Shown here: in pieces, positions 454-21,932 of the stretch
Numbering within the stretch: the first letter of the stretch is position 1
Layout of the letters: the number at the start of each line of letters is the position of its first letter
From: Teredinibacter sp. KSP-S5-2
GTDB lineage: Bacteria > Pseudomonadota > Gammaproteobacteria > Pseudomonadales > Cellvibrionaceae
Length of the DNA: 64,000 bases
NCBI RefSeq assembly: GCF_032773895.1
Contig: NZ_CP120416.1
Location: 1,796,001 to 1,860,000, forward strand
Direction of reading: 5' to 3'
Translations under genes and position numbers: made by a program
The notes under the pieces: model-generated
Databases searched by the model: none
What the model saw: only the letters and a program-made list of their open reading frames with translations
Told to the model about the DNA's origin: nothing

Positions 454-3400
454 ATGAATATCCTAGCCTCAAAAAAACAAGTTGATATTGGTAGTGAAGA
501 GATAGCAATTATTGGTATGGGATGTCGCTTTCCCAATGATATAACCTCACCCGAAGAGTTTTGGCGAAGTTTATTAAACCAAGTGGACGGGATATCGGAT
601 GTGCCTGTGAATAGGTGGGATATTCGCAAATACTACGATGAAGACAAAGAAAAACCTGGGAAAATGTACACAAAACAGGCGGGTTTTTTAAAGCAAAACC
701 TGGAAACTTACGACCCGCTTTTCTTTGGCATTTCTCCCCGTGAAGCCGATGTCATAGACCCCATGCAGCGTCTACTCATGGAAGTTACCTGGGAAACAAT
801 GGAACATGCAGGAATACCGTTAGAGGAATTCCAGAAAGTAAAAACGGGTGTTTTTGTCGGCGGGTTTGCTCAGGATAACAAAGTTATTCAACTGGACTCT
901 GAAAATCAAAAGATTATTAATGCTACCTCTGCGGTTGGAATAACTTTGGCTATGTTATCCAATCGTTTGTCCTACGTGTTCGATTTGACAGGGCCAAGTT
1001 TATCCATCGACACGGCATGTTCCAGCTCAATGGTGGCGACACATTATGCGATTCAAAGTTTAAGAAATGGCGATTGCGAAATGGCATTTGTCGGTGGCGC
1101 GAATGCGATGTTGACACCAGGGTATCCTGTTGCTATGTGTAAAGGTCAATTTTTATCACACCATAGTCGGTGTAAAGCTTTTTCAAATGAAGCTGCGGGT
1201 TATGTTCGTGCTGAAGGTGCCGGGGTACTGTTACTCAAACCACTGAGTAAAGCGTTGGAAGATGGTGACAGAGTTCACGGTGTTATTATTGAGTCGGGCG
1301 TTAACCAGGATGGTGGCCAAACAAATGGCATTTCCCAACCCAATGCAAAAGCGCAGGAAAAACTAATTCGTTATGTTTACGGTAAGGCCAATATCGCTCC
1401 CAGTGATGTGAGTTTTATTGAAGCACATGGGACCGGAACCAAGGCCGGCGATCCGATTGAGATTAAAGCGCTAACAGAATCCATGAAAGAAAGAAGCCTG
1501 GATAACACCTGTTATGTCGGTTCTGTAAAAAGTAATATCGGGCATATGGAAGCGGCCTCGGCCATGGCTGGTATTATGAAGGCGGCTCTGGTTGCAAAAA
1601 CAAAGTCCATTCCGGCGAATTTACATTTTAATACACCAAATGAAGCCATTCCTTTCGATTCTATTCCGCTGCAGGTTCCCACTGAAACGATTCAACTGGA
1701 CAAATCAAAAGTTCATTACATCGGTGTGAACTCTTTTGGCTATGGTGGCACCAATGGTCATGTCATTTTGCGTTCACCCAAGGAAAATGAAGACAGTATT
1801 TTTGTAAAAAAAGAAGGTGAAGTACGATCTCATTGGTTGGTGCCTGTTTCAGCTAAAAGTATGGATGCCTTACAAGCACTGGCAGAACGTTATCACGATT
1901 ACGTGAGCTCCACTCCTGAATTTGTTATGGAGGATTTAATCTACTCGCTAAGTCGGCGGCGGACTCAGCTTGCTGAGCGAACAGTTTTTGTTGTCAAAGA
2001 CAAGCAAGACTTATCACGTAAGTTGCTGGATTATTCAAAAAGTAATTTTAATGAAGATATGGTGGAAGCCAAGGCGCACCAGTCTGGAACGAAATTGTGT
2101 TTTGTTTATACCGGGATGGGGCCCCAGTGGTGGGCAATGGGTAGAGAGCTTTATGCCTCCGAACCGGTGTTCAAAGCGGAAGTTGATAAAATTGAATCCG
2201 TATTTAAAAAGGTAAATGGTTGGTCAATTCTGGATGAGATGATGAAGCCGGAAGACGAATCCAATATGGCATCTACAACCATTGCTCAGCCCGCAAATTT
2301 TGTCATTCAAGCAGCCTTGACCCGGTTGCTAGAGTACTGGGGCGTAACGCCAAATTGTGTTATCGGACACAGTGTCGGTGAGGTTTCCTCGGCTTATATC
2401 TCCGGTGCAATCTCTCTGGAAGATGCTGTATTGGTAAGCTGCATTCGCAGTCAGCAACAACAACGATGTGCCAACATGGGTGGCGGTATGCTCGCCGTCG
2501 GTATGGCAGAAAAAGAAGCATTAGCCCTAATTAAAAATTACCCTAATGTGGCTATTGCGGCAATCAACTCCCTGTCCGCAGTCACCTTGTCGGGGGACAG
2601 CAGTGAACTGGAGTTGATTGCTACAGAGTTAACCCATCAGGAAATCTTTAATCGTTTCCTTCGCGTCGATATTGCCTACCATTCGAGTCAAATGGATCCC
2701 ATCATGGCTGATCTGTTGGCGGAACTCAGTTCACTTAAACCAAATTCAACGCACCTGCCACTATACTCAACCGTGACCGGTGAGTTAATCGATGGAGAGG
2801 CGGTCGATGGAGAATACTGGTGTAAAAATGTCCGAGAACCTGTAAGGTTTGCTCAGGGAATCAAATCAGTTACCGATTCTGGTGACTATCATTTTATTGA
2901 AATAGGGCCGCATCCAGTACTACGAGCATCGATTAAAGAATTTTTGGATCATCACGGTATTACCGGTTCTTCAATTGTTTCCACGTTAAATCGAAAACTT
3001 CCGGAGCTGGACTGCTTTTATCGAACGTTGGCGGGGCTACACGCTAACGGTATCGAAATTTTCTGGGAAAACTATTTCGATCACAATCCCCAGTTTCTTG
3101 ATTTGCCACTTTACCCCTGGCAACGGGAACACTATTGGCACGAAACGGAAACCTCTATGGAGAAGCGTCTCGGGCGTGCGGGTTATGTTTACCTCAACGA
3201 ACAGGTCAGATCTCCTGTTCCAACCTGGAAAATGGAGGTCAATAAATACTTATTGCCCTATCTGGAAGACCATAAAGTTGAAGGTCTGGTGGTATTCCCT
3301 GGAGCAGGTTATATCGATGTTGCTTTGGTCATGCACGATGAACAATATCAGAGTACTGCATGTTCAATCGAAAATTTTGCCATACATAAAATGCTTGCTG

Positions 3401-6400
3401 TTCAGCCTGGACAAGTGCCCGTTATGCGTTCCTCGTTAGATAGAGAAAGCAATGAATTTCGCATCTACAGTTCTGATGAAGGAAGCATATCGGATAACTG
3501 GAATTTACATGTGTCGGGCAGGGTGATCGATGGAAAATTCCACTCGACTTCTCCGGTTGTGAACATTGTTGATATTAAAACAAAGGTTAGCCAAGCGTTA
3601 GATACGCAGAAATTTTATGAAAATATGCAGGCACGAGGTCTGTCCTATGGCCATTATTTTCAACCGATTAAATCCTTGTTTGTAAACTCCGATTGTGTTT
3701 TGGCCGAAATTATTCCTGTTCAGGAACTCGACTCTCAGCCTAAAGACTACTTGCTTCATCCAACGATTCTTGACGCCAGCTTTCAATCACTTATTACCTT
3801 AATAAATAGCAACCAAGCGTTTGTTCCGGTTGGTTTTGAGCGATTGGATTTTTATCGGGCACCTGAAGGGCGTTGTTGGAGTTATGGCGAGATCACCCAT
3901 AGGGCAGGAAATAGCATAACGTGTCGGGTACAGTTATTTAATGAACAGGGAGAAACCCTGGCAGAAATAAAAAATCTCACCTGCCAGAGCATAGGCCAGA
4001 ATAGTCAACAGGATGAAGAACAAAAATGGTTGTACGGCTTTGAATGGCAAGCCAGTGAAATTGATTTTAGCGATCCAAGTTTGAAAAACAATCAACAAAT
4101 ATTGGTCTTGGCAAATGATAATTCGTTGACCGAATCTCTGGTTTCAGAGTTAGAGTATGCCTCGCTGAATTATGCTGTGTTATATCGTGGTGCCAAGTAT
4201 CGGAAAATCGACCTTAATACCATCATAGTGGATCCGCTGAATGTGCAGCAACTTGAGAAAGCGATTGCCGAATTCGATTATATTAAAATTAATACCGTGA
4301 TTGACCTATGGTCTTGTGAGTCTTTTGCTGAGGTCGATGCGACAACCGATTATCTTACTGAACAAAGCATGTCGTTAAGAAATATGTTAGATGTGTTGAA
4401 ATCTCAGACACAAAAAATTAATTGGTTGAAGTTTACCCGTGGCGCGCAATCTATGTCGAGTTCAACTCAGCAGCAAAATATTGCCGTTGCGCCATTGCTT
4501 GGACTTGGGCCTTTGGTTATCAATGAGTTTAACCACATTTTATGCCGAATGATTGACTTTGATTTTGATCACGGAGGCAATGAACCGGACATCATTCTCA
4601 GTGAACTGGCTGACAAATCAAATGAAACGGAAGTGGTTTATCGGGATGGAGCGCGATATCTACGCAAAGTTACCCGTCGTCACGCGGATACCAGCCCATA
4701 TACGATAATTGAATCCTCTACCTCCACACCAGCAGTTGCGCGAGAAGTAAAACGTGACGGTGTTGCCACTCTTGAACTTTATGACCAGCCCAAGCTTTCA
4801 GTGAAGAAAGGACAAGTTGAAATCGCCGTTAAGGCATCATTATTGAATGATAACCAACTCTCTCTGATTAACCAGATGAAAGATGCTGCGTTACCGTTAT
4901 TTTCAGATAAGCAACTTGCCTACGAGTGTGAGGGTGTAGTCGTGGCCGTTGGTGAGAGCAGTCAATTTAAGGTGGGTGACAGGGTCGTCGCAATATCCGG
5001 TGTTGAAGCTGCGCAAACTAATCTTGTCATTTGGCAGAACTATGTCGCGTTAAAACCTGCTGGTATTCATTCATTTAATCCGCTTTGGTCTACCTGTGCT
5101 TTTTATTGTTTAAACAATTTGGGGCAGCTAGGTCAGGGCGACGACATCCTTATCCACAATGCAGATAGCTATTTGGGAATGTACTTAATTGATTTCGCAG
5201 TCAATATGGGGGCAAACGTTCATGTAACGACTGTGGATGAATCAAATAAAAATCTACTGGAAAACAAACATCTTGGTGGCGTCTACGATTTAGATAGTCT
5301 GGAGTATGTGGAGAAGCTGCTCGATAGTACGCACCGGAAAGGTGTGAGGCTTGTGGTCAACTTGGCGTCAGGTTCGCTTAGGCATAACGTATTCAAAGTG
5401 CTCAGCCCATTTGGACGATTTATTGACCTGGATGTTGTGGCAAACAACGCAAACAAAACCATACCTGAGTCCGTACTGGCTAAACAGCTCAATTACCATT
5501 CTGTCAATCTCGGTCAATGGTTGGCTTCACAGCCGGATTCTGTTCATGAATGTCTTACAAGTTCGGTGTCGCTATGTGAAAACAACAATCTGAATGTGCT
5601 TATGCAATCACCGTATGATGCCAGTAACGTGAATGATGCCTACGAATATTTTCAGGATGGCAGAGCACGCGCTGAAGTGGTGCGTATTGAATATTCAGAT
5701 AAACGCATTCCGGTAAATGTCGTTAAGCGCCATACCTGGCTACCGCGAAATGGTAGTTTTATTGTGACGGGCGGTACTCGTGGCTTTGGTTTATCTGTTG
5801 CATTGCGGTTAGCTGAATTGGGTGCTGAGCAATTAATACTGGTCAGTCGCAGTGGTATACCTGGTGATTCTGAAGAAAAAATTATTGATCAGATCGAACA
5901 AACAGGTTGTAAGGTGATTGTCGAGAAAACAGATATTTGTGACCAAGACTCGGTTGCGAATCTTGTCGCCTCATACGATCAAGTGGCTGCACCTATAAAA
6001 GGCATATTCCATTGCGCGGGTGTTCTGGATGATGGCCCGTTACTTAGTATGACTGCTGAACGCTTTAATAAAGTGATCAAACCTAAAGTGAAAGGTGCAT
6101 GGAACCTGCACTATGCGACACAAAGTCTCAAGCATTCTGAGTTGGCACTGTTTGTCATGTTTTCTTCTGTGTCTTCGATGATGGGTAACCAACAGCAGGC
6201 TAACTACGTTGTTGCAAACTCATTTTTTGATAACTTTGCTTTCTACCGACGTGCATTGGGGTTACCGTCTACCGTCATTAATTGGGGTGCACTTTCTGAA
6301 ACCGGTATGGTGGCGAGAGATGCTGGCGTGAAAACCGTATTGGAAGAGCAGGGCATATTTGGTATTGCCAACGACTATGCGTTACAGCAAATGGAAAACG

Positions 6401-6855
6401 CGCTGGAACAGCAGCTTACCCAGGTAGGCATTTTGGATATCAACTGGAATGCGTGGTTTAAGTCCAATCCCAATTCCAAAAACTCACCGCGTTATCAATA
6501 TCTAATTGAAGGGCTGGCTACGGAAGGCGAAGAAGAAGGGCTCAATGAGTTTTTAATCTCATTAAAAGAGCTGTCGATTCAGGAGCGCCAGTCGTCCATT
6601 GAAAATGTCATTAAAGAAAAAATTTCCCAGTTGTTACGCATGCCGATGGATCGGATTGATTCCGGTAGTAGTTTGACTAATTTGGGGGTTGATTCAATTG
6701 TTACTGGTGAACTCAGTGGTAAATTGAAAAAAGATTACGGTTTAAGTGTCAACAGCATGACACTACTGAATAGCCCATCTATCTCGGCTTTATCTTTCGA
6801 GTTGGTTCGAATGAACTTCACTGAAGAAGATGAAATGGAAGCTGAACCCACCTGA
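454..6855 (+). CDS. Single-module reducing type I polyketide synthase (KS-AT-DH-pseudoKR-ER-KR-ACP)
   Basis: This 2133-residue protein builds a reduced polyketide or branched acyl chain on its own ACP. The KS has the active Cys189 (TACSSS), His325 (EAHGTGT) and His364 (NIGH). The AT has Ser640 (GHSVGE) and reads IAYHS where malonyl-specific ATs have HAFHS. The DH has His940 (HKVEGLVVFP) and Asp1107 (LDASFQ). A non-catalytic KR-like stretch lies around 1220-1450. The ER follows, but reads HNADSYLG near 1568 where a glycine-rich NADPH loop is expected. The KR has TGGTRGFG near 1771, an LDD motif (B-type) and Tyr1918 with Asn four residues on. The ACP serine is 2081 (GVDSIV). There is no C-terminal thioesterase; two follow as separate genes. 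ATG 454 is chosen because AAGGA precedes it by about six bases and the KS begins soon after. A single module suggests iterative use. The product is unknown. Confidence 0.93.
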   Translation: MNILASKKQVDIGSEEIAIIGMGCRFPNDITSPEEFWRSLLNQVDGISDVPVNRWDIRKYYDEDKEKPGKMYTKQAGFLKQNLETYDPLFFGISPREADVIDPMQRLLMEVTWETMEHAGIPLEEFQKVKTGVFVGGFAQDNKVIQLDSENQKIINATSAVGITLAMLSNRLSYVFDLTGPSLSIDTACSSSMVATHYAIQSLRNGDCEMAFVGGANAMLTPGYPVAMCKGQFLSHHSRCKAFSNEAAGYVRAEGAGVLLLKPLSKALEDGDRVHGVIIESGVNQDGGQTNGISQPNAKAQEKLIRYVYGKANIAPSDVSFIEAHGTGTKAGDPIEIKALTESMKERSLDNTCYVGSVKSNIGHMEAASAMAGIMKAALVAKTKSIPANLHFNTPNEAIPFDSIPLQVPTETIQLDKSKVHYIGVNSFGYGGTNGHVILRSPKENEDSIFVKKEGEVRSHWLVPVSAKSMDALQALAERYHDYVSSTPEFVMEDLIYSLSRRRTQLAERTVFVVKDKQDLSRKLLDYSKSNFNEDMVEAKAHQSGTKLCFVYTGMGPQWWAMGRELYASEPVFKAEVDKIESVFKKVNGWSILDEMMKPEDESNMASTTIAQPANFVIQAALTRLLEYWGVTPNCVIGHSVGEVSSAYISGAISLEDAVLVSCIRSQQQQRCANMGGGMLAVGMAEKEALALIKNYPNVAIAAINSLSAVTLSGDSSELELIATELTHQEIFNRFLRVDIAYHSSQMDPIMADLLAELSSLKPNSTHLPLYSTVTGELIDGEAVDGEYWCKNVREPVRFAQGIKSVTDSGDYHFIEIGPHPVLRASIKEFLDHHGITGSSIVSTLNRKLPELDCFYRTLAGLHANGIEIFWENYFDHNPQFLDLPLYPWQREHYWHETETSMEKRLGRAGYVYLNEQVRSPVPTWKMEVNKYLLPYLEDHKVEGLVVFPGAGYIDVALVMHDEQYQSTACSIENFAIHKMLAVQPGQVPVMRSSLDRESNEFRIYSSDEGSISDNWNLHVSGRVIDGKFHSTSPVVNIVDIKTKVSQALDTQKFYENMQARGLSYGHYFQPIKSLFVNSDCVLAEIIPVQELDSQPKDYLLHPTILDASFQSLITLINSNQAFVPVGFERLDFYRAPEGRCWSYGEITHRAGNSITCRVQLFNEQGETLAEIKNLTCQSIGQNSQQDEEQKWLYGFEWQASEIDFSDPSLKNNQQILVLANDNSLTESLVSELEYASLNYAVLYRGAKYRKIDLNTIIVDPLNVQQLEKAIAEFDYIKINTVIDLWSCESFAEVDATTDYLTEQSMSLRNMLDVLKSQTQKINWLKFTRGAQSMSSSTQQQNIAVAPLLGLGPLVINEFNHILCRMIDFDFDHGGNEPDIILSELADKSNETEVVYRDGARYLRKVTRRHADTSPYTIIESSTSTPAVAREVKRDGVATLELYDQPKLSVKKGQVEIAVKASLLNDNQLSLINQMKDAALPLFSDKQLAYECEGVVVAVGESSQFKVGDRVVAISGVEAAQTNLVIWQNYVALKPAGIHSFNPLWSTCAFYCLNNLGQLGQGDDILIHNADSYLGMYLIDFAVNMGANVHVTTVDESNKNLLENKHLGGVYDLDSLEYVEKLLDSTHRKGVRLVVNLASGSLRHNVFKVLSPFGRFIDLDVVANNANKTIPESVLAKQLNYHSVNLGQWLASQPDSVHECLTSSVSLCENNNLNVLMQSPYDASNVNDAYEYFQDGRARAEVVRIEYSDKRIPVNVVKRHTWLPRNGSFIVTGGTRGFGLSVALRLAELGAEQLILVSRSGIPGDSEEKIIDQIEQTGCKVIVEKTDICDQDSVANLVASYDQVAAPIKGIFHCAGVLDDGPLLSMTAERFNKVIKPKVKGAWNLHYATQSLKHSELALFVMFSSVSSMMGNQQQANYVVANSFFDNFAFYRRALGLPSTVINWGALSETGMVARDAGVKTVLEEQGIFGIANDYALQQMENALEQQLTQVGILDINWNAWFKSNPNSKNSPRYQYLIEGLATEGEEEGLNEFLISLKELSIQERQSSIENVIKEKISQLLRMPMDRIDSGSSLTNLGVDSIVTGELSGKLKKDYGLSVNSMTLLNSPSISALSFELVRMNFTEEDEMEAEPT

Positions 6856-6887
6856 TTCTTTGATATTTAGCATCTAATGCAGAGCTA

Positions 6888-6920
6888 GGCGTCTACGACA
6901 AATATCGTAGATGCCTGGCT
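6888..6920 (+). terminator. Stem-loop between PKS and thioesterase genes (partial terminator or attenuator)
   Basis: An 11-bp stem with one G-U pair (GGCGTCTACGA with TCGTAGATGCC) closes a short loop and is followed by GGGGGTTTTT. It sits between the PKS stop and the next gene of the same cluster, so it may lower expression of the downstream genes or stabilise the PKS transcript. Confidence 0.5.
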
Positions 6921-6976
6921 TGGGGGTTTTTGATTTTTATATTTAACCGATATTCAAATGAACATAAGAAGGAGCG

Positions 6977-7420
6977 ATGAATATGAACGTGAGTGATATG
7001 AACGGTTTACAATTAATGAAAGCCATGGCGAACAGAGAAATTCCTTTGCCCAATATTGCGAACATTGTTCCCATGCTGGATGGACAAGCCGCCCGAGGAA
7101 AAATGTCAATTCGTGTGCGTGCCAATGAAAATCATCTTAATAGTCAGAATGCCGTCCACGGTGGATTTGCGTCAACGGTACTGGACACCGCGATGGCGTG
7201 TGCGGTGCATACCATGCTTAATTCCAATTCGGGTGTCTGTACGATTGATCTCAGCCTTAAATATGTGAAGCCTATTCCTGTAGATATGGATCTTTACGCG
7301 GAAGGTCAGGTTGATGAAATGACTGCACAAATAGGGTTTGCCAGCGGTCGATTACGTGATGACGACGGTAATATATACGTTACTGCGTCGACATCATGCA
7401 TGTTACTTAAAAGTAATTGA
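6977..7420 (+). CDS. PaaI-type hotdog thioesterase
   Basis: This 147-residue protein has the single hotdog fold of acyl-CoA/acyl-ACP thioesterases. The signature is NAVHGGFASTVLDTAMA near residues 55-72: the HGG turn that opens the thioester site, followed by the Asp (LDTAMA) that serves as catalytic acid or base in the PaaI family. AAGGAG lies three bases before ATG 6977. It sits between the PKS and a second, alpha/beta-type thioesterase, so it probably releases the chain from the PKS ACP or clears misprimed acyl groups. A role on acyl-CoA is equally possible from sequence alone. Confidence 0.85.
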   Translation: MNMNVSDMNGLQLMKAMANREIPLPNIANIVPMLDGQAARGKMSIRVRANENHLNSQNAVHGGFASTVLDTAMACAVHTMLNSNSGVCTIDLSLKYVKPIPVDMDLYAEGQVDEMTAQIGFASGRLRDDDGNIYVTASTSCMLLKSN

Positions 7421-7433
7421 ATGAAGTGATGCT

Positions 7434-8219
7434 ATGTACGATCTAATCGACCCTTATGATGAGTTGCATTCCGAGAGCACAATCGTAGAGACAAATTCGC
7501 CCTGGTTGAAAATATATGAACCGAGAAAAAATGCGAGAGTACGCTTGTATTGTTTCTCGCATATTGGTGGAGGCGCATCAACCTATAAAGACTGGCATCG
7601 TCATTTGACTGATAATATCGAGGTGGCGGCCATTCAACTTCCCGGACGAGAAGATAGAAGCAATGACCGATTGTGTCAGTCAGTTGATGATGTGCTTCTG
7701 AATATTGTGCCGTTTATTTTTCAGGATGCCAGACCGTTCATTTTATTTGGTCATAGTTTTGGCAGTGTTTTGGCGTACTCTCTGCAGCAGGAGCTGGAGA
7801 ATTACGAATTACCTTCATTAGGCTTGATTGTCTCAGCAAAGTCAGCTCCCCACGTTTCCAGACAAAAAAAACGTTCTAGCTTGCCCAGAATTCAACTTAT
7901 TCAAGAGTTAAAACGAATGGGGGGTACACCTGAGTCGATTTTTAACGATTCGGCGTTGTTAGATCGGGCTATGAAAACCATAAGAGCCGATTTCAGTGTG
8001 CTGGAAAGTGCTCAAAACATGGTGAAGCCAATAAAAATCAATAGCCCCATTGCTGCGATCAGTGCTGAACAGGATAGCTTGGTTAGTTTTGAAAGCATTA
8101 GTGCCTGGCGAGACTACACGCAATTATCGTTTGAATTACACAGTGTTAAAGGTGACCACTTTTATATTCATTCACCACCGGAAAGCATTTTTTCGATTGT
8201 GAGTCAGTTTGCGGATTGA
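7434..8219 (+). CDS. Type II thioesterase (alpha/beta hydrolase, PKS/NRPS editing type)
   Basis: This 261-residue protein matches the stand-alone thioesterases that accompany PKS and NRPS systems. It has LYCFSHIGGGASTY near the N-terminus (oxyanion region), the nucleophile Ser108 in GHSFGS, an acidic residue in AEQDS and His242 in GDHFYIHS. These enzymes normally remove aberrant acyl groups from carrier proteins and sometimes release the product. It starts 13 bases after the hotdog thioesterase, with no strong ribosome site, so coupled translation is likely. It is the second thioesterase in the operon, while the PKS has none built in. Confidence 0.88.
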   Translation: MYDLIDPYDELHSESTIVETNSPWLKIYEPRKNARVRLYCFSHIGGGASTYKDWHRHLTDNIEVAAIQLPGREDRSNDRLCQSVDDVLLNIVPFIFQDARPFILFGHSFGSVLAYSLQQELENYELPSLGLIVSAKSAPHVSRQKKRSSLPRIQLIQELKRMGGTPESIFNDSALLDRAMKTIRADFSVLESAQNMVKPIKINSPIAAISAEQDSLVSFESISAWRDYTQLSFELHSVKGDHFYIHSPPESIFSIVSQFAD

Positions 8220-8255
8220 ATACAGCGAGAAAAAACATTATTGAGGATACATTTT

Positions 8256-10175
8256 ATGGAAAAGAATTCGATAATAATTGATAAGCCTGAATCTTCGATG
8301 TTTGATGAGCGTCAGAGTGAAGTTGTTTTACCAGAAGGGTATAGCACAGGATATAAATTCAGAAGATTAATATCTCAAGTGCTGTTTGCTGCAAAATCTG
8401 GATGTATGTACGGAGTAATTTTGTTGATGGAGTTATTTAGAGCGCCTTCTGCTTTGATGAAAGGCGAAATGCGGGGTTATATCTCTGGTTTTTTTCAGCG
8501 TTATCGGCAAGCGACCACTTTTGTGATTGGTGGAGAACGTTTATTTTCCGAGTTGATGTTGGTATCTAAACACCCCATGGAAACCCAACTGAATTTGTTA
8601 AAGCAGATTATCACCGAGAACAGTTGTGCCCAATATGGAAAAGATCATAACTTTAGCGGGATAAAAACTGTTGAACAGTATCGCAATGAAGTTCCGATAA
8701 ATAGCTACGAAAATCTAATGCCGTATATTGAAGCGCATCTTCAGGGTAAAGCGGATTCGCTTATCGCAGGAAGCCCTTGTTATTACGCCACAACCAGCGG
8801 TTCCACCGGTAAACCAAAGTTTATTCCCGTTACCCGTCAAATTGAAAAAGATGCGCATGAAGGCAGTGCGCGGCTCTGGTCTTATTCATTGTATAAGAAT
8901 GAGTCCAAATCCTATTCCGGACAAATTGTTGTGATTGTTTCGCCTGCGGTGGAGGGGTATACCGAAGGGGGCGTGCCCTTTGGTTCAATATCTGGCCAGT
9001 ATATAAAGAACCTCAATGAAAATATTCGTTCAAAATATGCGGTTCCCTATGAACTGTATGAAGTTAAGGATTACGAAACCCGCTACTACTGTATTTTGCT
9101 ATTAGGTATGGCTGCTGAAAATGTCACCATGCTCTCGTCAACTAATCCTTCAACACTTAGCTTGCTTGGCGAGAAAGGTAACCAGCATCGTGATGAATTA
9201 ATTGAAGATATTCGATATGGAAGACTGAATGCCAGGTGGCAGTTGGAACCGCATATTCGACAATTGGTGGAATCACGCTTAACGCCAAATCCTGAGCGGG
9301 CGGATTATCTGCTTTCCTGTATCGAAAAAGACCCGGATTCTTTGTTAAGACCAAAACACTACTGGCGTGACTTGGTTGTCGTGGCGTGTTGGACCGGGGG
9401 GAATTCTCAGGTATTCCTTGACCGTATGCACCAATGGTATGGCCAGGTCAATATCAAAGACCTTGGTTACCTGGCTTCAGAAATTCGTGGCTCTGTGCCT
9501 CTGGATATTAATAAAAGTGAGGGTGTGCTAACCGTTGATGAAAACTTCTTTGAATTTGTTGAAGAGGGAGAGAGCACCTTATACAACGAAAACTATAAAT
9601 TAATCAATCAGCTGGAAGTGGGAAAACGTTATCGATTATTTTTCACAAATCGAGGCGGGCTATATCGCTACGATATTAACGACATTATACAGGTCAAAGG
9701 CTTTTTTAATGGCATACCAAAAATAGATTTTATTCAAAAAGGAAAAGGCGTCACCAGTATTACTGGAGAAAAACTATACGAACAGCAAGTGTTGGATGTC
9801 ATGAATAGGGCGGCGGAAGCGGTGGGCGTCAAAGTGGTGTACTTCCAAATGCAGGCGAGAGTTGAGTTGAGCCGTTACGACCTTTTCTGTGAATTTGAAC
9901 GGCCGGTAGTAAATGAAGATATAACGCTTCGAGAATTTATTGAAACAGTCGAGTTGTTTATGCGGGAAATGAATCTCGAGTATAAAACCAAGAGAGATTC
10001 TTTGCGATTGAGTCCTATGCAGCTACATGTTCTTGGCGAAAATTCATTTGAGTCTTTCAGAAAATGGCGTGTTGAAAATGGTGTGCGTGAGGCTCAAATA
10101 AAAAATGTACCTCTTTCGTCAGATATCAGTTTGGTAGAACCTTTATCAGTAACAAAAATAATTGAAATTAAATAA
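8256..10175 (+). CDS. GH3-family acyl-adenylating enzyme (acyl-acid amido synthetase-like)
   Basis: GH3 enzymes, known best from plants (JAR1, auxin-amido synthetases), adenylate a carboxylic acid and join it to an amino acid. The N-terminal nucleotide loop is seen as TTSGSTGKPKFIPVT near residue 175. The hallmark YRYDINDIIQV lies near 470 and the following ITGEKLYEQQV segment is also typical. Length (639 aa) is near that of plant GH3 proteins. About 90 residues precede the core and include a hydrophobic stretch (about 45-65) that could associate with membrane. ATG 8256 is preferred because TGAGGA lies eight bases before it. In this operon the obvious substrate is the acid released from the PKS. 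The amine partner cannot be read from sequence. Confidence 0.85.
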   Translation: MEKNSIIIDKPESSMFDERQSEVVLPEGYSTGYKFRRLISQVLFAAKSGCMYGVILLMELFRAPSALMKGEMRGYISGFFQRYRQATTFVIGGERLFSELMLVSKHPMETQLNLLKQIITENSCAQYGKDHNFSGIKTVEQYRNEVPINSYENLMPYIEAHLQGKADSLIAGSPCYYATTSGSTGKPKFIPVTRQIEKDAHEGSARLWSYSLYKNESKSYSGQIVVIVSPAVEGYTEGGVPFGSISGQYIKNLNENIRSKYAVPYELYEVKDYETRYYCILLLGMAAENVTMLSSTNPSTLSLLGEKGNQHRDELIEDIRYGRLNARWQLEPHIRQLVESRLTPNPERADYLLSCIEKDPDSLLRPKHYWRDLVVVACWTGGNSQVFLDRMHQWYGQVNIKDLGYLASEIRGSVPLDINKSEGVLTVDENFFEFVEEGESTLYNENYKLINQLEVGKRYRLFFTNRGGLYRYDINDIIQVKGFFNGIPKIDFIQKGKGVTSITGEKLYEQQVLDVMNRAAEAVGVKVVYFQMQARVELSRYDLFCEFERPVVNEDITLREFIETVELFMREMNLEYKTKRDSLRLSPMQLHVLGENSFESFRKWRVENGVREAQIKNVPLSSDISLVEPLSVTKIIEIK

Positions 10176-10185
10176 GGATGTCACA

Positions 10186-11307
10186 ATGAAAAAGGCAATA
10201 AAAATTACTGTTTTCGTTTTTCTGGCGCAGATTTCACTGCTGGTTTCAGCTGGCAATGTATTCGATCAATATAATTTGACGGGAGAGCACCATCGTTTCA
10301 TTCAGCAGGATGAAGATATTTTTTGGGAAGGCGGGCTTATTCATGATTTGGAAACAGATACTCTTGATATCTCCTATCCCAGAATGCCTCATTTTACTAA
10401 GTACAAAATTCGTTACACCAAATGGACACCAATGACATCGAACAATCAGGTTGTGATATATAACCACGGTTTACAAAGTCATTCCGGTTGGTTTAATGAA
10501 ACGGCGGAAAAACTGTCAGCTTTAGGTTATACGGTTTATGCCTTCGATCGTATTGGCACAGGCACCTCCGGTGATGGTAAATCTCTATTGACGGCCGACC
10601 AGACAGATGAGGGAATGACAATGTTAAACCGGGGTGCTGGTCACACCGGTAACTGGAAAGTGTATACCCGAACTATTCACTTGATGAAACAGCTGGCCAA
10701 AGCACAAAATCCGGGAAAATCGATCAACATCTGGGCAAACAGCTATGCGGCGAATATTGTCACCGCGTATATCCTGCAATATGAACCGGAAGATGTTTCC
10801 GCTTACGTTTTCACAAGTCCAGGCCTTTTCTCCATTTTGCCGCTGCCATTTCCTATCGATGATCTAATTAACTCCCAACCTGGCACCTATTTTCCTACCA
10901 CTATCCCGGAGCAAAATGGTGATCAGGGCGCGTATCTCTTTACCTCTATTCCCGAGTATCAAAACGCCATTACACGGGATAGACGTTCGCAAAGAGATTT
11001 TACTAAGGAATTTTATTTTAATATTCTGGGTATACAAAACTACCATTTTGGTAAAGCTGCCCAACCGGGTTCCTATTTGGATAAGACAAAGCGTTTCTAC
11101 CTGGTTGTTAACGGTGATCCAATGATGAGCACGCAAAAAACCATCGATTATGTTTCTCAGCATGCTTCGAATGCAACACTAAAATTATATAACGGTGGTG
11201 CAGATAATCGTCATTTTCTGACTTTTACCGAAGATGCCCAACAGGTGTTGAATGATGTTGATGTGTTTTTAACCGGGCAAACTGTTGCTGGTGCAGAGGT
11301 ATTTTAA
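10186..11307 (+). CDS. Exported alpha/beta hydrolase (lysophospholipase/monoacylglycerol lipase-like)
   Basis: A signal peptide (MKKAIKITVFVFLAQISLLVSA) sends this 373-residue enzyme to the periplasm. The oxyanion segment is YNHGLQSHSGW and an FDRIGTGTS strand follows, as in monoacylglycerol lipase-like proteins. The nucleophile elbow reads WANSYAAN with Ser186, not the usual GxSxG. An Asp in NGDPMMS and a His in NRHFLTF complete a plausible triad. ATG 10186 has AAGGA eight bases upstream; it begins just after the GH3 stop, and its own stop overlaps the next start by one base. It may hydrolyse an ester or amide of the pathway product outside the cytoplasm. This role is inferred only from position. 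Confidence 0.82.
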   Translation: MKKAIKITVFVFLAQISLLVSAGNVFDQYNLTGEHHRFIQQDEDIFWEGGLIHDLETDTLDISYPRMPHFTKYKIRYTKWTPMTSNNQVVIYNHGLQSHSGWFNETAEKLSALGYTVYAFDRIGTGTSGDGKSLLTADQTDEGMTMLNRGAGHTGNWKVYTRTIHLMKQLAKAQNPGKSINIWANSYAANIVTAYILQYEPEDVSAYVFTSPGLFSILPLPFPIDDLINSQPGTYFPTTIPEQNGDQGAYLFTSIPEYQNAITRDRRSQRDFTKEFYFNILGIQNYHFGKAAQPGSYLDKTKRFYLVVNGDPMMSTQKTIDYVSQHASNATLKLYNGGADNRHFLTFTEDAQQVLNDVDVFLTGQTVAGAEVF

Positions 11308-12482
11308 TGAAAATAGTTGGCTTTCGACTGCATGAAACCAGTCTTCCGTTCAACATCGCTTTTAATCATACAACCAAAAGCCGGGCCCATGTTGAAGCGG
11401 TGATTCTTGAGATTCATACGGACGCTGGCGTGATTGGTTATGGTGAAGTTCTTCCCCGGGATTATGTTACCGGGGAAACGAATCAATCCGTAATTGAACA
11501 TGCCGTGCAATCGGTACTACCTGCATTGACGGAGGCCGAGTTTGCAGACTTTTCCGAGATTGCCACCTGGCTGTCTGTTTTTTATCAGCGTTTTCCTGAT
11601 GTGTTAAAGCATGAACAATGTGTTCGAACTCTTTTTGATTTGGCTTTGCTCGATGCTTACGGTAAAACAATTCAACAACCTGTTGCCACCTTGCTAGGTG
11701 GTAACACCGGTCGCGATATTGTATATAGCGGTGTTATTACCGCAGGTAACCCTGACATTGTTTCAAAATACATAACTGCCTATGCAAAACTTGACCTTCG
11801 GCAGTTTAAAGTGAAAGTCGGTGGCGATTGGGGGCAGGATCTACGCAATATTCAAATGCTTAAGGATGCTTGTGGCGAGAATATTGCCATAAGGGTTGAT
11901 GCAAATGAGGCATGGGATTTGGCTACCGCTCAAGTGCGTTTAGCTGCGTTAGCCGAACTGGGTGTCACCAGTTGCGAACAGCCAATGCCGGCAGAAAAAA
12001 AGCATGATTATCCTGCGCTGAAAAAATCCCTGGATTCAGCCATGAATATTTGCATTGACGAGTCTCTTTGTACCATCGAAGACGCGCATTGGTTTGTGGA
12101 TAACGACGGCGCGGATATTTTTAATCTGCGTGTTTCTAAAAACGGTGGGATACTCAATGTTATTTCTCTGGGGTTGATTGCGGAGGAGGCAGGACTGTCC
12201 TGTCAACTCGGATCTCAGGTTGGGGAAACATCCTTATTAACCAGTGCAGGAATCATCGTTGCCAATCACTTGGGTAACTGTGTCTATCATGAAGGTGCAT
12301 TTGGCACAATGCTCTTATCTCATGACCTGACATGCCAACCGCTAATGTTTGGCCGAAGAGGTATTCTTAATACAAATATTATTCAGTCGCAGGGTTTGGG
12401 TGTGGAAGTTGATACAGCGCTCTATGGGAAAATGGTTGAAAAGACCTACTGGGATGATGTAACAATTTCAGAACCCGCTTAA
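11307..12482 (+). CDS. Enolase-superfamily enzyme, MLE subgroup (epimerase/racemase-like)
   Basis: This 391-residue protein has the full set of MLE-subgroup residues: Lys168 and Lys170 in FKVKVGG, metal ligands Asp198 (RVDANEAWD), Glu224 (CEQPMP) and Asp251 (CIDESL), and Lys278 (RVSKNGG). The two opposed lysines allow 1,1-proton transfer at an alpha carbon, as in dipeptide epimerases, N-acylamino acid racemases and o-succinylbenzoate synthases; the chemistry cannot be pinned down further. No men or muconate genes are nearby. The start overlaps the hydrolase stop (TAATG), so the two are translationally coupled. With a GH3 amide-former in the same operon, an N-acyl amino acid is an attractive substrate. 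It is the last gene before a terminator. Confidence 0.85.
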   Translation: MKIVGFRLHETSLPFNIAFNHTTKSRAHVEAVILEIHTDAGVIGYGEVLPRDYVTGETNQSVIEHAVQSVLPALTEAEFADFSEIATWLSVFYQRFPDVLKHEQCVRTLFDLALLDAYGKTIQQPVATLLGGNTGRDIVYSGVITAGNPDIVSKYITAYAKLDLRQFKVKVGGDWGQDLRNIQMLKDACGENIAIRVDANEAWDLATAQVRLAALAELGVTSCEQPMPAEKKHDYPALKKSLDSAMNICIDESLCTIEDAHWFVDNDGADIFNLRVSKNGGILNVISLGLIAEEAGLSCQLGSQVGETSLLTSAGIIVANHLGNCVYHEGAFGTMLLSHDLTCQPLMFGRRGILNTNIIQSQGLGVEVDTALYGKMVEKTYWDDVTISEPA

Positions 12483-12488: not shown

Positions 12489-12514
12489 GTTCGGGTTTAT
12501 ATCTAAGCCCGAAC
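12489..12514 (+). terminator. Rho-independent-type terminator closing the PKS operon
   Basis: A 10-bp stem (GTTCGGGTTT with AAGCCCGAAC, one G-U pair) begins seven bases after the enolase-family stop, with a moderately T-rich tract (TCTTTTT) shortly after. Confidence 0.6.
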
Positions 12515-12717: not shown

Positions 12718-13389
12718 GTGAGAGTTTTAATAGTTGAGGATGCACGCGCTATTGCTGAGAGCATTTCGGAATACCTGAACTTGTTTGGTTATGTCTGTGA
12801 CTTTGCTTATGATGGGCTGGCCGGGTTACAAATGGCTCGTCAAAATGAATATGATATATATGTTCTGGATATTTCCATGCCAAAGATGAATGGTCTGGAT
12901 CTATGTAAAGAACTAAAGCAAATCAGTGACAGAAACCCTGGTGTAATATTTTTGACCGCCCGGGATACGCTTGAAGATAAGTTGATTGGTTTTTCCTGTG
13001 GTGGGGATGACTATTTAGTCAAACCTTTTCGCCTGGAAGAGCTTAAAGCCCGAATCGAGGCTATATATAACCGTTGTACCGGGCCGGGAACAAAAGTTCT
13101 TACTTTGGAAAACCTTCATGTTAACTTGGATACCTGTGAAGTGCAGAGAAATAACAAAAATATTTCCCTGACCAAGAGTTGCTACAAACTGTTAGTAATA
13201 CTCTTGAAAAATGCTCCAGCGGTTGTGACTCGCGAAACATTAAATCATGAATTATGGGCAGACGAATTTCCAGATAGTGATTCACTTAAGAGTCACATCT
13301 ATCGCTTGCGACAGGAAATCGACAAACCGTTTGATAGTGCCCTGATTCATACTGTTCAGGGCGTGGGATTCAGGATGGCTGTAAAATGA
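12718..13389 (+). CDS. OmpR/PhoB-family response regulator
   Basis: A 223-residue two-domain regulator. The receiver has the acidic pocket (VEDA), phosphoacceptor Asp51 (VLDISMP), a Thr in FLTARD and Lys in VKPF. The C-terminal winged helix has the typical ending HTVQGVGFRM. GTG 12718 is the start, with AAAAGGGGAG upstream. Its 3' end overlaps the kinase start by four bases (ATGA), so the two form a unit. It probably controls the downstream PepSY-MipA, adaptor and RND genes and perhaps the PKS operon, but no binding site could be identified. Confidence 0.92.
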   Translation: MRVLIVEDARAIAESISEYLNLFGYVCDFAYDGLAGLQMARQNEYDIYVLDISMPKMNGLDLCKELKQISDRNPGVIFLTARDTLEDKLIGFSCGGDDYLVKPFRLEELKARIEAIYNRCTGPGTKVLTLENLHVNLDTCEVQRNNKNISLTKSCYKLLVILLKNAPAVVTRETLNHELWADEFPDSDSLKSHIYRLRQEIDKPFDSALIHTVQGVGFRMAVK

Positions 13390-14732
13390 ATATAAGTAAG
13401 AGCCTGCGTTTTCGAATCAATGCTGGTTATGTTATTTTTTGCCTGGTTACTACGGTATGCTATTCGATCTGTGCTCTTACAGTATTAAAAATAAGCGATG
13501 ACGAGCTGTTTAACTGGTACATCGTTCGGCTCGCCGAAGGGTTGTATAACCAACACGATTTACTGCATCAAACCGATTTTTATATAGCAGATAGCGAAAT
13601 GTTTGTCGGTACGGATGCCCAAGTCATCAGAAAAGTTCTGGCGGAACACGATAATCATGAAAACACGATCTCTGATTCAATGTCTCTTGATGACTGGGAT
13701 CATGTGCGGCACGTTTCCCGCGGCGACAGTGGTCGTTATGAGGTTTATGAGCTGACGCTACCAGACAAAAACTACCATATGGTTAAAATTCCGTTACGGG
13801 ATAGCTTTAATAAAAATCAGTTTTTTTACTACATAATTGATGTCAGCGGATATAACACCTATGCCGTTTCCGCTGTTCAGGGAACCTATTTCGGTCTTTC
13901 TGTCTTACTGTTTTTATTCTTTATTATCGCCATTGTCAGCGGTAAAGTCATTTCGGAAAAAGTTATCTCACCGCTTAAACAGCTTGCGGATGAAGTGGCT
14001 AAAGCTGATGTTGGAACCAAATTGAATAGCTATTACCCAGATGAGGTGGGTATTCTGGCTGGTAAGGTTAATCAACTTGTTGCCCGGATCGGTGGTTTTA
14101 TCGATCGGGAAAAAGCTTTTTCAAGAGATGTCAGCCATGAGCTGAGGACGCCCATCACGAGTAGTCAGGTGTCTTTGGAACTGGCAATGCAAATGACCAA
14201 AGAAAGTGATACCAAACTGAGAAGTGTGTTGCAACGTATTGGCGATGCGAATCGGGATATGATTCACTTGATTGAAACCTTTATGTTAATCGGCCGTGAA
14301 AACATCCCCAAAGATTCTGTCACTCAAACCAATTTGTATGATGTGGTGCATGAATCGATAACACGAAACCAGTATTTGATTGGCGTTAAAAAGTTGGATG
14401 TCGTGAGTCATGTGGATGAAAAAATCGAAGTTAAACAACCAAAAAAACTGTTACTGGTTGTGATAGACAATATTTTACGTAATGCCTTTCAATATACTGA
14501 TGAGGGCAATGTCACTATACGAGGCAATAAGGAGTTTATCTCGATTGCGGATACGGGACGGGGTTTTGATCAGTCTGCAATCGATCGCCTGTCCATGCCG
14601 TATGAGACGTTTCACGGCGAAGGGGTTGGTCTTGGGTTGAATATTATTAAACGAATTTGTAAGTTGACCGGTTGGCGTCTTGATGTTCGTAGTGAATGCG
14701 GTGTCGGCAGCCTATTAATTATTCACTTCTAG
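13386..14732 (+). CDS. Membrane sensor histidine kinase
   Basis: A 448-residue kinase with a transmembrane helix near 12-34, a periplasmic region of about 120 residues, a second helix near 160-185, a HAMP linker, the phosphoacceptor His251 (SHELRTP) and the ATPase boxes NAFQYTDEG, DTGRGF and GVGLGLNI. It resembles the QseC/PhoQ-like class, partner of OmpR-type regulators. The periplasmic region does not match a sensor domain I know. The signal may be the transported or synthesised compound, or envelope stress; this is inference from the flanking export genes. Confidence 0.9.
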   Translation: MNISKSLRFRINAGYVIFCLVTTVCYSICALTVLKISDDELFNWYIVRLAEGLYNQHDLLHQTDFYIADSEMFVGTDAQVIRKVLAEHDNHENTISDSMSLDDWDHVRHVSRGDSGRYEVYELTLPDKNYHMVKIPLRDSFNKNQFFYYIIDVSGYNTYAVSAVQGTYFGLSVLLFLFFIIAIVSGKVISEKVISPLKQLADEVAKADVGTKLNSYYPDEVGILAGKVNQLVARIGGFIDREKAFSRDVSHELRTPITSSQVSLELAMQMTKESDTKLRSVLQRIGDANRDMIHLIETFMLIGRENIPKDSVTQTNLYDVVHESITRNQYLIGVKKLDVVSHVDEKIEVKQPKKLLLVVIDNILRNAFQYTDEGNVTIRGNKEFISIADTGRGFDQSAIDRLSMPYETFHGEGVGLGLNIIKRICKLTGWRLDVRSECGVGSLLIIHF

Positions 14733-14981
14733 TTCTTTTTCTTCATTCTTGGCATTAAAGGTTTCTTCTTGTCGGGAAGGGGGCTTCTGTGGTCCTGTCC
14801 CACATTCATTAATCTGCTACATCAGGCACTGCTCGATGAACCTGAATAGAGTCAGGTTGCTATTTTTTAACCACTTTTTGATCCTGCAATATCGACTTTC
14901 TTTTTAGTGTTTTTATTTGTTTTTTATTACCGTTTTGTCACCTCTGTGATAACAAAATAAGAAAAAACTAGGAGCGACATC

Positions 14982-15929
14982 ATGAAATTTTTGATTAGTT
15001 TGATTTTGGCGAACATGTTGTTAATACCGCTGCAATCATTCGCTATGTCATTGGAAGAAGCACAGTCAATAATTGATGCTTTGAATCTTGGTGGTAAAGC
15101 TACTGAGGTAAGAAAATACAAACGTAAAGGCACGCAGGTCTATGAAATTGAGTACGTCCTTAATGGTGAGGAATATGAAGCGATTGTAAAACCTGATGGT
15201 ACGCTAATAGAAAACTATAAAGATGACGGCAGAACAGGCGGCGGGTTGCCCGTGATTTTTGGTCTGGCAGCTTCCCTTGATACACAAATTTATAAGCAAC
15301 AGTCAGAAGAAGCTGAATTAATTCCCCTTATTATTGGTAACTATCAACGTTTTTGGTTTCGTGGCACCCGGTATGGATACTATGCCTGGAAAAACGACTA
15401 TTTTGCCATTTCCCCCATGTTTAAGATCGACCCTGATTCCGGCTATGAAGTGGCCGATGCGGAAGACGGTTCCTTGCTATACGAAGGTTTAGATGATACC
15501 GGGTTTGGTTATGAAGGTGGGGTTCAACTGATGTTGGATGTAAAGGTTGTTGAATTTGAATTGAACCTGTTGACCGATGTCGCGAATGGTCACGGTGCCA
15601 GTTTGGCGGAACTGGAAATATCCAAACCCTATCGAATCAATAATTTCATTGTGATGCCATCTTTAATGCTTACCTATCGTGAAGATAAAGTATCCGATTA
15701 CTATTTCGGCGTGGATGCGGAGGACGCAAGGAGCTACAGACCTGCGTACGAAGCGACAAATAATTTTGATGCAGAGTTCAGCGTGGTTGGGATATGGAGT
15801 CTTAATGCTCACTGGCATATCGTGGGGGAGCTTGGTTACAAATACTATGACTCTCAAATTGAAGATAGCCCGCTTGTTGAGACATCTTCTCAGACTACAG
15901 GCTTTATTGGTATGGGATACAGTTTTTGA
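14982..15929 (+). CDS. PepSY-like domain fused to MipA/OmpV-family outer-membrane beta-barrel
   Basis: A signal peptide ends near SFA. Residues about 22-75 (VRKYKRKGTQVYEIEYVLNG and the following EAIVKPDGT) look like a PepSY repeat. The rest carries the MipA/OmpV pattern: RGTRYGYYAW, a GYE-containing segment, SDYYFGVDAEDA, RPAYEATNNF and SQIEDSPLV, ending in the aromatic GYSF typical of outer-membrane barrels. MipA/OmpV proteins occur beside two-component systems and envelope stress genes. GGAGCGA precedes the start by about seven bases. No TolC homologue is encoded nearby, so this barrel could give the RND pump an outer-membrane partner or be a separate stress protein. Confidence 0.82.
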   Translation: MKFLISLILANMLLIPLQSFAMSLEEAQSIIDALNLGGKATEVRKYKRKGTQVYEIEYVLNGEEYEAIVKPDGTLIENYKDDGRTGGGLPVIFGLAASLDTQIYKQQSEEAELIPLIIGNYQRFWFRGTRYGYYAWKNDYFAISPMFKIDPDSGYEVADAEDGSLLYEGLDDTGFGYEGGVQLMLDVKVVEFELNLLTDVANGHGASLAELEISKPYRINNFIVMPSLMLTYREDKVSDYYFGVDAEDARSYRPAYEATNNFDAEFSVVGIWSLNAHWHIVGELGYKYYDSQIEDSPLVETSSQTTGFIGMGYSF

Positions 15930-15984
15930 TTTCTGGTATGAGACGTGTAATCGACGCGGCGGTAAATGGGTGGGGTATTATCCT

Positions 15985-21456: not shown

Positions 21457-21461
21457 GCAAT

Positions 21462-21647
21462 TTTGTGCAGAGCAAGGTGAGTAAGATAACGGGATACCTC
21501 TGCGGCGCCAACAGAACTCGGGTGGCGCTTTTCGGTATAGGAGATGAACTGCCTAACCCATGTTAGATACGTTTTTTCTGTTTTGTAAGCCATGCCTTTA
21601 ATAGGAATCACCTCACGAACATGTCGTAAAAAATGGGCTACGCTCAT
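21462..21647 (-). pseudogene. intI: Integron integrase intI, N-terminal fragment (relic 1)
   Basis: Read on the minus strand from ATG 21647, about 62 residues match the N-terminal SAM-like domain of integron integrases: HFLRHVREVIPIKG, KTEKTYLTWVRQFI, KRHPSSVG and the AAEVSRYLTHLAL helix. Homology stops abruptly beside the NagX stop codon, so the catalytic domain (Arg...His-x-x-Arg...Tyr) is gone. Orientation is divergent from the cassettes, as in real integrons. The remaining in-frame residues come from the antisense of the NagX gene. Confidence 0.85.
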
Positions 21648-21903: not shown

Positions 21904-21932
21904 TGTACGCTTTTTTCAGCATGTGATATAGT
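21904..21932 (+). promoter_or_regulatory. Candidate cassette promoter (Pc-like), copy 1
   Basis: TGTACG, a 17-base spacer and TATAGT point toward the cassettes, about 90 bases before the attI crossover. The same two hexamers with the same spacing occur at 39715-39743, while the spacer has diverged. The -35 is weak, so the call rests mainly on conservation. Confidence 0.45.

Follow-up and report, generated by a model that had tools for sequence, protein, structure and literature searches.

More than 7500 hits to GH3-like proteins have been reported in bacteria, and that report gives a function to one of them, OlsH, which joins a free fatty acid, with ATP, to ornithine and needs neither an acyl carrier protein (ACP) nor CoA (PMC12493201). 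For the MLE subgroup of the enolase superfamily, a review describes two families of N-succinyl amino acid racemases and an overlap between OSBS and racemase activities (PMC4215206). Here we describe a locus in which members of both groups meet. It lies in a 64,000-nucleotide stretch of the Teredinibacter sp. KSP-S5-2 genome (contig NZ_CP120416.1, positions 1,796,001 to 1,860,000; this whole 64-kb stretch is referred to as the window), where six genes, all on the plus strand within positions 454-12482, encode a type I polyketide synthase (PKS), two thioesterases, a GH3 protein, an alpha/beta hydrolase (ABH) and an MLE-subgroup enzyme (hereafter the MLE). We found that GH3 and MLE genes are neighbours in many bacteria, and we propose that the product of the locus is an exported N-acyl amino acid of polyketide origin, a scheme to which, taken whole, we give about an even chance. 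N-acyl amino acids made by GH3 proteins are already known; the recurrent MLE partner, three locus architectures and a version fed by a PKS appear to be new. Among the matches listed in the open-licence full-text literature, judged on titles and the starts of abstracts, no paper tied a GH3 protein to an enolase-family partner.

A first-pass annotation of this DNA had named the six genes and their families, and the open reading frames (ORFs), Pfam and NCBIfam confirm each of them, the ABH through its Pfam matches (no NCBIfam model matched it in the NCBIfam scan):

454..6855, plus strand: PKS, type I, KS-AT-DH-(psiKR)-ER(degenerate NADPH motif)-KR-ACP, 2133 residues (Pfam, NCBIfam, motif alignment)
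6977..7420, plus strand: hotdog-fold (PaaI-type) thioesterase (PF03061, TIGR00369, motif)
7434..8219, plus strand: type II (alpha/beta) thioesterase (PF00975, 131 bits; GHSFGS and GDHF motifs)
8256..10175, plus strand: GH3 acyl-acid amido synthetase (Pfam, motifs; alternative TTG start at 8241)
10186..11307, plus strand: ABH, probably exported (Pfam, alignment, model fold; signal-like N-terminus by eye)
11307..12482, plus strand: MLE-subgroup enolase-superfamily enzyme, proposed N-acyl-amino-acid racemase/epimerase (Pfam, NCBIfam, alignment, model)

Two surveys link the GH3 and MLE genes, and both support the earlier idea that an amide is formed and then passed to the MLE. We searched 84,980 species with a five-MLE alignment as the query and used the best 80 of 402 relatives; in 49 of these 80 loci a GH3 gene lies no more than 1.2 kb from the MLE gene, either adjoining it or with one gene between. 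Locus taxonomy is that of the record titles, many of them belonging to metagenome assemblies, and titles may err (for example 'Bordetella parapertussis' for L085 and 'Kuenenia' for L062). Just 5' of GH3 in 39 of the 49 stands a homologue of the PF04116 membrane di-iron protein of L035, which we call OlsE-like because the L035 protein, the single member on which this match rests, has the ornithine-lipid hydroxylase OlsE (NF052566) as its sole NCBIfam match, at 177 bits against a cut-off of 475. These hydroxylase-type loci, mostly from metagenome assemblies, fall by title into nine phyla (Pseudomonadota, Nitrospirota, Nitrospinota, Chloroflexota, Acidobacteriota, Poribacteria, Gemmatimonadota, Bacteroidota and Planctomycetota). 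The other ten are seven loci of the window's own clade (the near clade, defined below), two planctomycete PKS loci and one locus at a contig edge (L111). At L091:7362-10004, in a Hydrogenophilales assembly, the OlsE-like hydroxylase and GH3 are fused in a single 880-residue frame with the MLE gene adjoining.

The second survey covered 390 genomes of the window's order, in which up to three GH3 and four MLE candidates were scored per genome and the lists compared by eye. With a profile of 42 MLEs, six genomes scored at least 427 bits, G212 scored 223 and 52 genomes scored 198 or below. All six top-scoring MLEs adjoin a GH3 gene, directly or across the ABH gene, versus none of the 52 weaker enolases. 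GH3 is present in 46 of the 390 genomes; it occurs in two of the 52 weaker-enolase genomes (G319 and G327), in neither case near the enolase hit. The G212 MLE also adjoins GH3 and stands outside the count of six, since 223 bits alone does not place it in the family. Its locus (L044:1479-7129) is a row of GH3, an alpha/beta hydrolase with the motif GHCLGG, in which Cys replaces the catalytic Ser, the divergent MLE and an enzyme dependent on thiamine diphosphate (TPP).

The two partners have similar histories. In an MLE tree built from the scan loci (78 of 80, without L061 and L113, which have in-frame stops) and seven other sequences, the window enzyme falls in a clade of ten, the near clade (SH-aLRT 98), apart from a hydroxylase-type clade of 42 rows (100), which includes L102, L106 and L111, and a planctomycete-type group of 30 rows (84). 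A GH3 tree, which uses 14 of 41 hydroxylase-type rows and leaves out L136, L138, L149, L015, L044 and L130, gives the same three groups (98, 99 and 96), all of them apart from OlsH (100). Moreover, GH3 and MLE pairwise identities correlate (0.88 over 52 loci), which is what co-inheritance of the two partners would produce, although common descent by itself would produce a correlation too.

The window GH3 matches the GH3 N-terminal domain (PF03321) at 235.2 bits, against a gathering cut-off of 23.6, and the GH3_M and GH3_C domains are also present. Its TSGSTG, GYLASE and GLYRYxxND motifs, which we take to be the three ATP/AMP-binding motifs, are intact and kept throughout the near clade. By family membership the protein is thus a GH3 acyl-acid amido synthetase with predicted amide-forming activity, and its intact nucleotide-binding motifs agree with the putative acyl-adenylating role assigned to it in the first pass. 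We consider the amide step highly probable. An N-terminal extension of ~99 residues includes a hydrophobic segment. Counted from motif I, the near-clade GH3s (n=9) carry 49-114 additional N-terminal residues, and six of the nine have a 19-residue segment with a mean hydropathy of at least 1.6 (eight GH3s of the other groups peak at 1.16 within their first 60 residues). Identity with OlsH (NF052613) was considered and rejected, as the window GH3 reaches only 84.6 bits where the cut-off is 620 and lies in a separate clade. On plasmids, GH3 was found in 13 records, each below 60% identity, and GH3, MLE and ABH were all without a match in the anti-phage library.

The window MLE has the fold of the subgroup together with its KxK motif, D-E-D metal ligands and opposing lysine. 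Residues K168, K170, D198, N200, E224, D251 and K278 are invariant in 42 sequences, as are H21, R51, Y53 and E307; K168, K170, D198, E224, D251 and K278 presumably fill the catalytic and metal-binding roles. The model has a pLDDT of 94 and its listed full-length structure matches have Z-scores of 40-46. The best match in both sequence (5e-37) and structure (Z 46.2, 1.9 A, 368 residues) is 2P88, the N-succinyl Arg/Lys racemase of Bacillus cereus. In dipeptide epimerases, a DxD at the end of beta-8 binds the free alpha-ammonium group. No DxD is found in MLE residues 324-342, where the near clade has HEGAFGT and the other groups EGAFGT or EGSYD; the alignment to 3Q45 is gapped here, so that the exact counterparts of the DxD are approximate. 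A dipeptide epimerase is rejected on this ground, and HEGAFGT in place of DxD speaks against a free dipeptide and would suit an amino group that is capped. The suggestion that the MLE acts as an epimerase of an N-acyl amino acid, to which we give somewhat better than an even chance, had been based in the first pass on the two lysines. That argument does not stand, since two lysines mark the whole MLE subgroup, cycloisomerases and OSBS included; the linkage to GH3 and the nearest structure, 2P88, are better evidence.

The PKS has the domain order ketosynthase (KS), acyltransferase (AT), dehydratase (DH), ketoreductase (KR)-like spacer, enoylreductase (ER), KR and ACP, with the spacer placed from a gap between domains. 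In an alignment with four relatives, of which the Pseudoalteromonas arctica copy lacks the start of its KS at a contig edge, the motifs with established roles in KS (DTACSS, EAHGTGT, KSNIGH), AT (GHSVGE), DH (HxxxGxxxxP and DxxxQ), KR (LDD and the S/Y/N residues) and ACP (GVDS) are intact. The AT carries the AYH variant, which usually indicates malonate. The ER motif reads HNADSYLGMYL at residue 1565 (~5146-5187) in the window versus HNASGGVGLAA in G038, a genome of Exilibacterium; the NADPH motif is intact in G038 only and degenerate in the window, in the near-identical pair L011 and L012 and in L060. Of the features that mark a highly reducing type I PKS, the KS, AT, DH, KR and ACP motifs are thus found, and an ER with an intact NADPH-binding motif is not. 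Because the ER motif is degenerate, the earlier label 'reducing PKS' may mean KR and DH only. Both thioesterases look intact in the four loci compared, all of which keep the HGG......D motif of the hotdog enzyme and the GHSFGS and GDHF motifs of the type II enzyme.

The ABH has a conserved catalytic set, S186-D311-H343, in which H343 never varies and S186 and D311 are retained by no fewer than 90% of the 13 aligned sequences. Near-clade ABHs have signal-like N-termini, judged by eye, and the window enzyme is probably exported, in line with the exported hydrolase of the first pass. Its model, built from the alignment of 13 sequences (pLDDT 84, several loops below 50), has the fold of monoacylglycerol lipases, a match in fold rather than in activity, and the enzyme could hydrolyse or transfer an acyl ester. 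That it acts on an ester outside the cytoplasm seems to us an evenly balanced proposition, and maturation of the product by the ABH in the periplasm, as earlier proposed, is a guess. The ABHs adjoining planctomycete MLEs are relatives of the window ABH (best 4e-19) that start without a signal-like stretch. They match an OlsI stand-in, a hydrolase encoded beside an OlsH that scores over its cut-off, weakly; the window ABH gave no BLAST hit to it at E 10.

The block of PKS, two thioesterases, GH3, ABH and MLE is conserved as a unit, which is the co-conservation that had been named in advance as a check. It is present in four of 144 genomes of the family (the window's own, G135, G136 and G038) and, from PKS to MLE in identical order before the contig ends, in Pseudoalteromonas arctica (L060). 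In all four family loci a response regulator and a histidine kinase belong to the same block, a membrane-fusion protein and an RND pump are also common to them, and nine genes are common to the window, G135, G136 and G038. In the window, G135 and G136 the genes for MipA, the membrane-fusion protein and the pump lie on the 3' side; in G038 they lie on the 5' side of the PKS. A histidine kinase of at least 44% identity was found only in the four cluster-bearing genomes of the 144, the next best being G122 with 31% (11 candidates scored per genome). The locus is thus longer than the first pass gave, with a co-conserved extension at 12718-20230. The further features are:

6882..6921, plus strand: terminator-like hairpin, 17-bp stem, loop of 6, then GGGGGTTTTT tail (terminator scan)
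12489..12514, plus strand: 11-bp hairpin directly 3' of the MLE stop codon (folding; absent from the terminator-scan list)
12718..13389, plus strand: OmpR-type response regulator (Pfam, NCBIfam; 3' of the MLE in 4/4 family loci)
13386..14732, plus strand: sensor histidine kinase (identity search across family genomes)
14982..15929, plus strand: MipA/OmpV-family outer-membrane protein (Pfam, NCBIfam)
15679..17109, plus strand: RND membrane-fusion protein (Pfam, comparison with relatives; true start probably 3' of the first GTG)
17099..20230, plus strand: RND (AcrB-family) pump (Pfam; 62% identity to the G135 and G136 copies, 56% to the G038 copy)

A second efflux-like set of 448, 526 and 1039 residues lies at L002:2730-8740, ~9.7 to 3.7 kb 5' of the PKS start; it is efflux-like in size and order, and its 1039-residue protein is 21% identical to the cluster RND pump.

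The description 'six tightly packed genes' is apt for five of them: between the hotdog gene and the MLE, successive genes are 13, 36, 10 and -1 bases apart. The PKS, whose start is the ATG at 454 in an ORF that opens at TTG 379, is set off by a 121-base gap that holds the 17-bp terminator-like hairpin. This is the longest stem listed in a scan that gave 20 terminator-like sites against 13.1 expected (sd 3.2). Folding energies, computed without a shuffle control, place hairpins in the same gap in L011, L012 and L060 as well, and a long imperfect structure with no clear T-run in that of G038. The hairpin at 12489-12514, to which L011 has a comparable hairpin with a T-run, is a possible transcript end.

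A PKS match is found in five of the ten near-clade loci (the window, G135, G136, G038, which is L054, and L060). Three Bdellovibrionota loci (L055, L057 and L058) have GH3-(ABH)-MLE with no PKS match in the 7-8 kb 5' of GH3; the pieces of L059 (fewer than 500 bases 5' of GH3) and L056 (which starts inside GH3) are too short to judge. The PKS is accordingly rejected as an essential part and is better seen as an optional feeder.

Other lineages appear to supply the acid differently. In the planctomycete loci L115 and L089, the latter a piece that begins after the KS, a type I PKS with a terminal thioesterase is accompanied by GH3, MLE and ABH, and the combination of PKS, GH3, MLE and ABH is thus present in a second, distant lineage. 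These clusters (L089:7289-16207 and L115:289-3783) also contain an NAD-dependent epimerase/dehydratase-like gene (by Pfam in L089), a ketopantoate-reductase-like gene (by Pfam in L115) and a gene for a ~430-residue protein with no Pfam match in L089. In two further planctomycetes the MLE is on another contig stretch and GH3 closes a set resembling a type II fatty acid synthase (FAS): at L164:3654-11768 this comprises a FabA-like protein, an SDR, a second FabA-like protein, two ketosynthases and a membrane-prone alpha/beta hydrolase, then GH3 (Pfam), and at L165:7626-15548 a similar set ends in GH3 (ketosynthases and hydrolase by Pfam, the rest from ORFs). After a second, distant GH3-MLE pair in G038 (L015:626-7625) come an AMP-dependent ligase, a UbiD-type decarboxylase and a protein of 376 residues that no Pfam model matched; this pair may draw on a different source of acid. 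Other bacteria probably obtain the acid from the ordinary FAS, from a type II FAS-like set dedicated to it or from a different type I PKS. As PKS, type II set and PKS-less loci differ, the acid supplier varies by lineage while GH3 and MLE stay, and the common substrate is more likely to be the amino acid end.

From gene content, motifs and co-conservation we infer the chemistry, the use of an amino acid, the order of the steps and the direction of transport as follows. The PKS would build a malonate-derived chain, probably partly unsaturated given the degenerate ER motif, and the hotdog thioesterase, the type II thioesterase or both would free the acid. Because OlsH uses a free acid and needs neither ACP nor CoA, a PKS feeding such a GH3 needs a thioesterase, and the locus has two. 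GH3 would then adenylate the free acid and join it to an amino acid. The MLE-family enzyme would invert the N-acylated amino acid at its alpha carbon through a two-lysine 1,1-proton transfer; the amide is its most likely substrate, since its nearest relative racemises N-acyl amino acids and the MLE stays when the supplier changes. The product would pass to the envelope via MipA and the RND pump, where the exported lipase-like ABH would hydrolyse or transfer an acyl ester, and the two-component system would control the locus.

We regard GH3-(ABH)-MLE as a general module to which many loci add an OlsE-like hydroxylase. The presence of such a hydroxylase next to members of the same GH3 family in other genomes suggests an amino acid lipid. 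More tentatively, and a little short of an even chance, GH3 and MLE may form the core of a widespread, undescribed class of aminolipids or N-acyl amino acids in which D/allo conversion follows N-acylation, with three architectures (OlsE-like hydroxylase-GH3-MLE; GH3-exported lipase-MLE; and a FAS-like set with GH3 plus a separate MLE-ABH) and with a PKS joined at least twice, in Gammaproteobacteria and in planctomycetes.

Several observations weigh against this picture. No GH3 match was found in the DNA around the MLE in 31 of the 80 loci, mostly planctomycetes by title and some at contig ends. When 28 genomes from these 31 loci, likewise mostly planctomycetes by title, were searched (L062 and L102 left out), one had no GH3 at all, that of L106, whose MLE is at a contig end. 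In favour of the link, the other 27 held a GH3 elsewhere, compared with 49 of 149 genomes sampled from the phylum of one of them (Fisher 7e-11, shared genome removed). True OlsH scores above its cut-off in six of 19 of these genomes, which leaves at least 13 whose GH3 is something other than OlsH. The amino acid substrate cannot be read from OlsH, as the window GH3 falls below its cut-off and outside its clade. The ABH gene lies between GH3 and MLE in nine of the ten near-clade loci, with L058 as the exception, and the PKS may be a separate transcript from the other five genes, since the terminator-like hairpin stands in its gap to the hotdog gene in the window and in relatives. For the MLE itself, chloromuconate cycloisomerase is the next structure match at Z 45.6, only 0.6 below the N-succinyl racemase, so that the fold leaves the reaction undecided, and the best NCBIfam model by score is muconate cycloisomerase TIGR02534, at 138.8 bits with its cut-off of 334.95 missed. 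The two lysines common to the subgroup add to this.

Among the alternatives, the product may be a structural membrane aminolipid, the PKS chain being N-linked in an ornithine-lipid-like molecule to which the ABH adds, or from which it trims, a second, ester-linked acyl group, as OlsI does. We hold this to be possible, at appreciably less than an even chance; it is compatible with our scheme from the release of the acid to the inversion step and differs in where the product ends. The pairing of GH3 with an alpha/beta hydrolase is that of OlsH and OlsI (PMC12493201), and the OlsE-like homologue in 39 of 49 GH3-MLE loci, the lipase fold of the ABH and the hydrophobic N-terminal segment of GH3 all fit. 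However, the near-clade ABH looks exported, while lipid assembly would be expected to be cytoplasmic, BLAST of the window ABH found no match to the OlsI stand-in, and the co-inherited sensor and RND pump suggest export.

Muconate cycloisomerase and OSBS work with the same residues as the MLE, and GH3 might make an N-acyl amino acid on which the MLE performs, in place of epimerisation, a cyclo-isomerisation or dehydration of either the acyl or the amino acid part. The closeness of the cycloisomerase structure and its place at the top of the NCBIfam list, although below cut-off, are consistent with this, as are the missing dipeptide-epimerase DxD near beta-8 and the family-wide R51, Y53 and H21, at positions that we take to line the substrate pocket in the subgroup. 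Moreover, one enzyme family includes both OSBS and N-succinyl amino acid racemase activities (PMC4215206). We nevertheless think such a reaction unlikely: an N-acyl amino acid racemase is the nearest relative by both sequence and structure, the characterised bacterial GH3 yields an N-acyl amino acid (PMC12493201), and the MLE is kept while suppliers vary, which places the shared substrate more probably at the amino acid end.

Conjugation by GH3 could instead mask or dispose of an active PKS acid, the amide being a storage or self-protection form from which the exported ABH frees the acid outside. Plant GH3 conjugation can activate or inactivate hormones (PMC11253546), and a probably exported hydrolase and a pump are present, but the GH3-ABH-MLE core occurs without a PKS nearby, the monoacylglycerol-lipase-like fold suggests esters rather than amides and a racemase would have no obvious part, all of which makes masking improbable. 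A chance neighbourhood, in which transfer assembled PKS, GH3 and MLE genes with no relation to one another and which a patchy distribution (four of 144 family genomes) might suggest, is scarcely credible given that the adjacency recurs in Pseudomonadota, Nitrospirota, Chloroflexota, Planctomycetota and others (record titles) and separates the six top-scoring MLEs of the order from its 52 weaker enolases.

Through this locus and its relatives, a taxonomically broad subset of bacterial GH3s acquires a partner that recurs and whose predicted role is stereochemical. There is also a candidate assignment for an MLE-subgroup family marked by a signature of its own (H21, PRxYV, K278). The predicted product class, N-acylated amino acids with an inverted alpha carbon, is testable, and GH3-MLE adjacency in many bacterial phyla points to an uncharacterised family of amino-acid lipids.

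The remainder of the window is largely dense with genes. Those sampled include a GGDEF/EAL protein, a TonB receptor, two SufBD proteins, a queuosine-synthesis protein, SecD, a PAS hybrid kinase, a class V aminotransferase and, at 28366-30144, a TPP-dependent enzyme with all three TPP domains. The single tRNA (Leu) is at 43762-43848. Amid the dense genes, 21457-25372 has only two ORFs of at least 150 residues and 38717-42212 has none.

Among the described systems closest to the locus is the OlsH/OlsI pathway of Singulisphaera acidiphila, which likewise has a GH3 with nucleotide-binding motifs, a free acyl acid, an amino acid and an alpha/beta hydrolase partner; the main text of that report contains neither 'racemase' nor 'polyketide', and in the portion consulted the published pathway has no MLE or PKS (PMC12493201). 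In the GH3 tree, OlsH and the GH3s of MLE loci lie on opposite sides (five OlsH rows versus 44 MLE-locus or genome rows, support 100), and no OlsE-type hydroxylase gene is among the window's six. The racemase 2P88 shares the KxK, D, E, D, K set with the window MLE at 27% identity and has D51 opposite the invariant R51 and I opposite H21; the R51-for-D51 difference might, as a guess from the alignment, reflect a different charge preference. The best NCBIfam match of the PKS is the reducing type I PKS model NF045894, at 1193.7 bits against a cut-off of 1740, and NF041183 (Pks2) gives 993.5 bits against 2400; unlike these PKSs, that of the window has a degenerate ER NADPH motif and is followed by free thioesterases and GH3. 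The nearest solved relative of the window GH3 is the plant jasmonoyl-amino acid synthetase JAR1 (4EPL, 5ECH; 1.6e-32), whose match spans only residues 95-604, the window protein adding the hydrophobic N-terminal segment. Coronatine follows the same logic, a polyketide acid being conjugated to an amino acid, and the locus described here would lead from a PKS to an amino acid conjugate with no need for a nonribosomal peptide synthetase or an acyltransferase.

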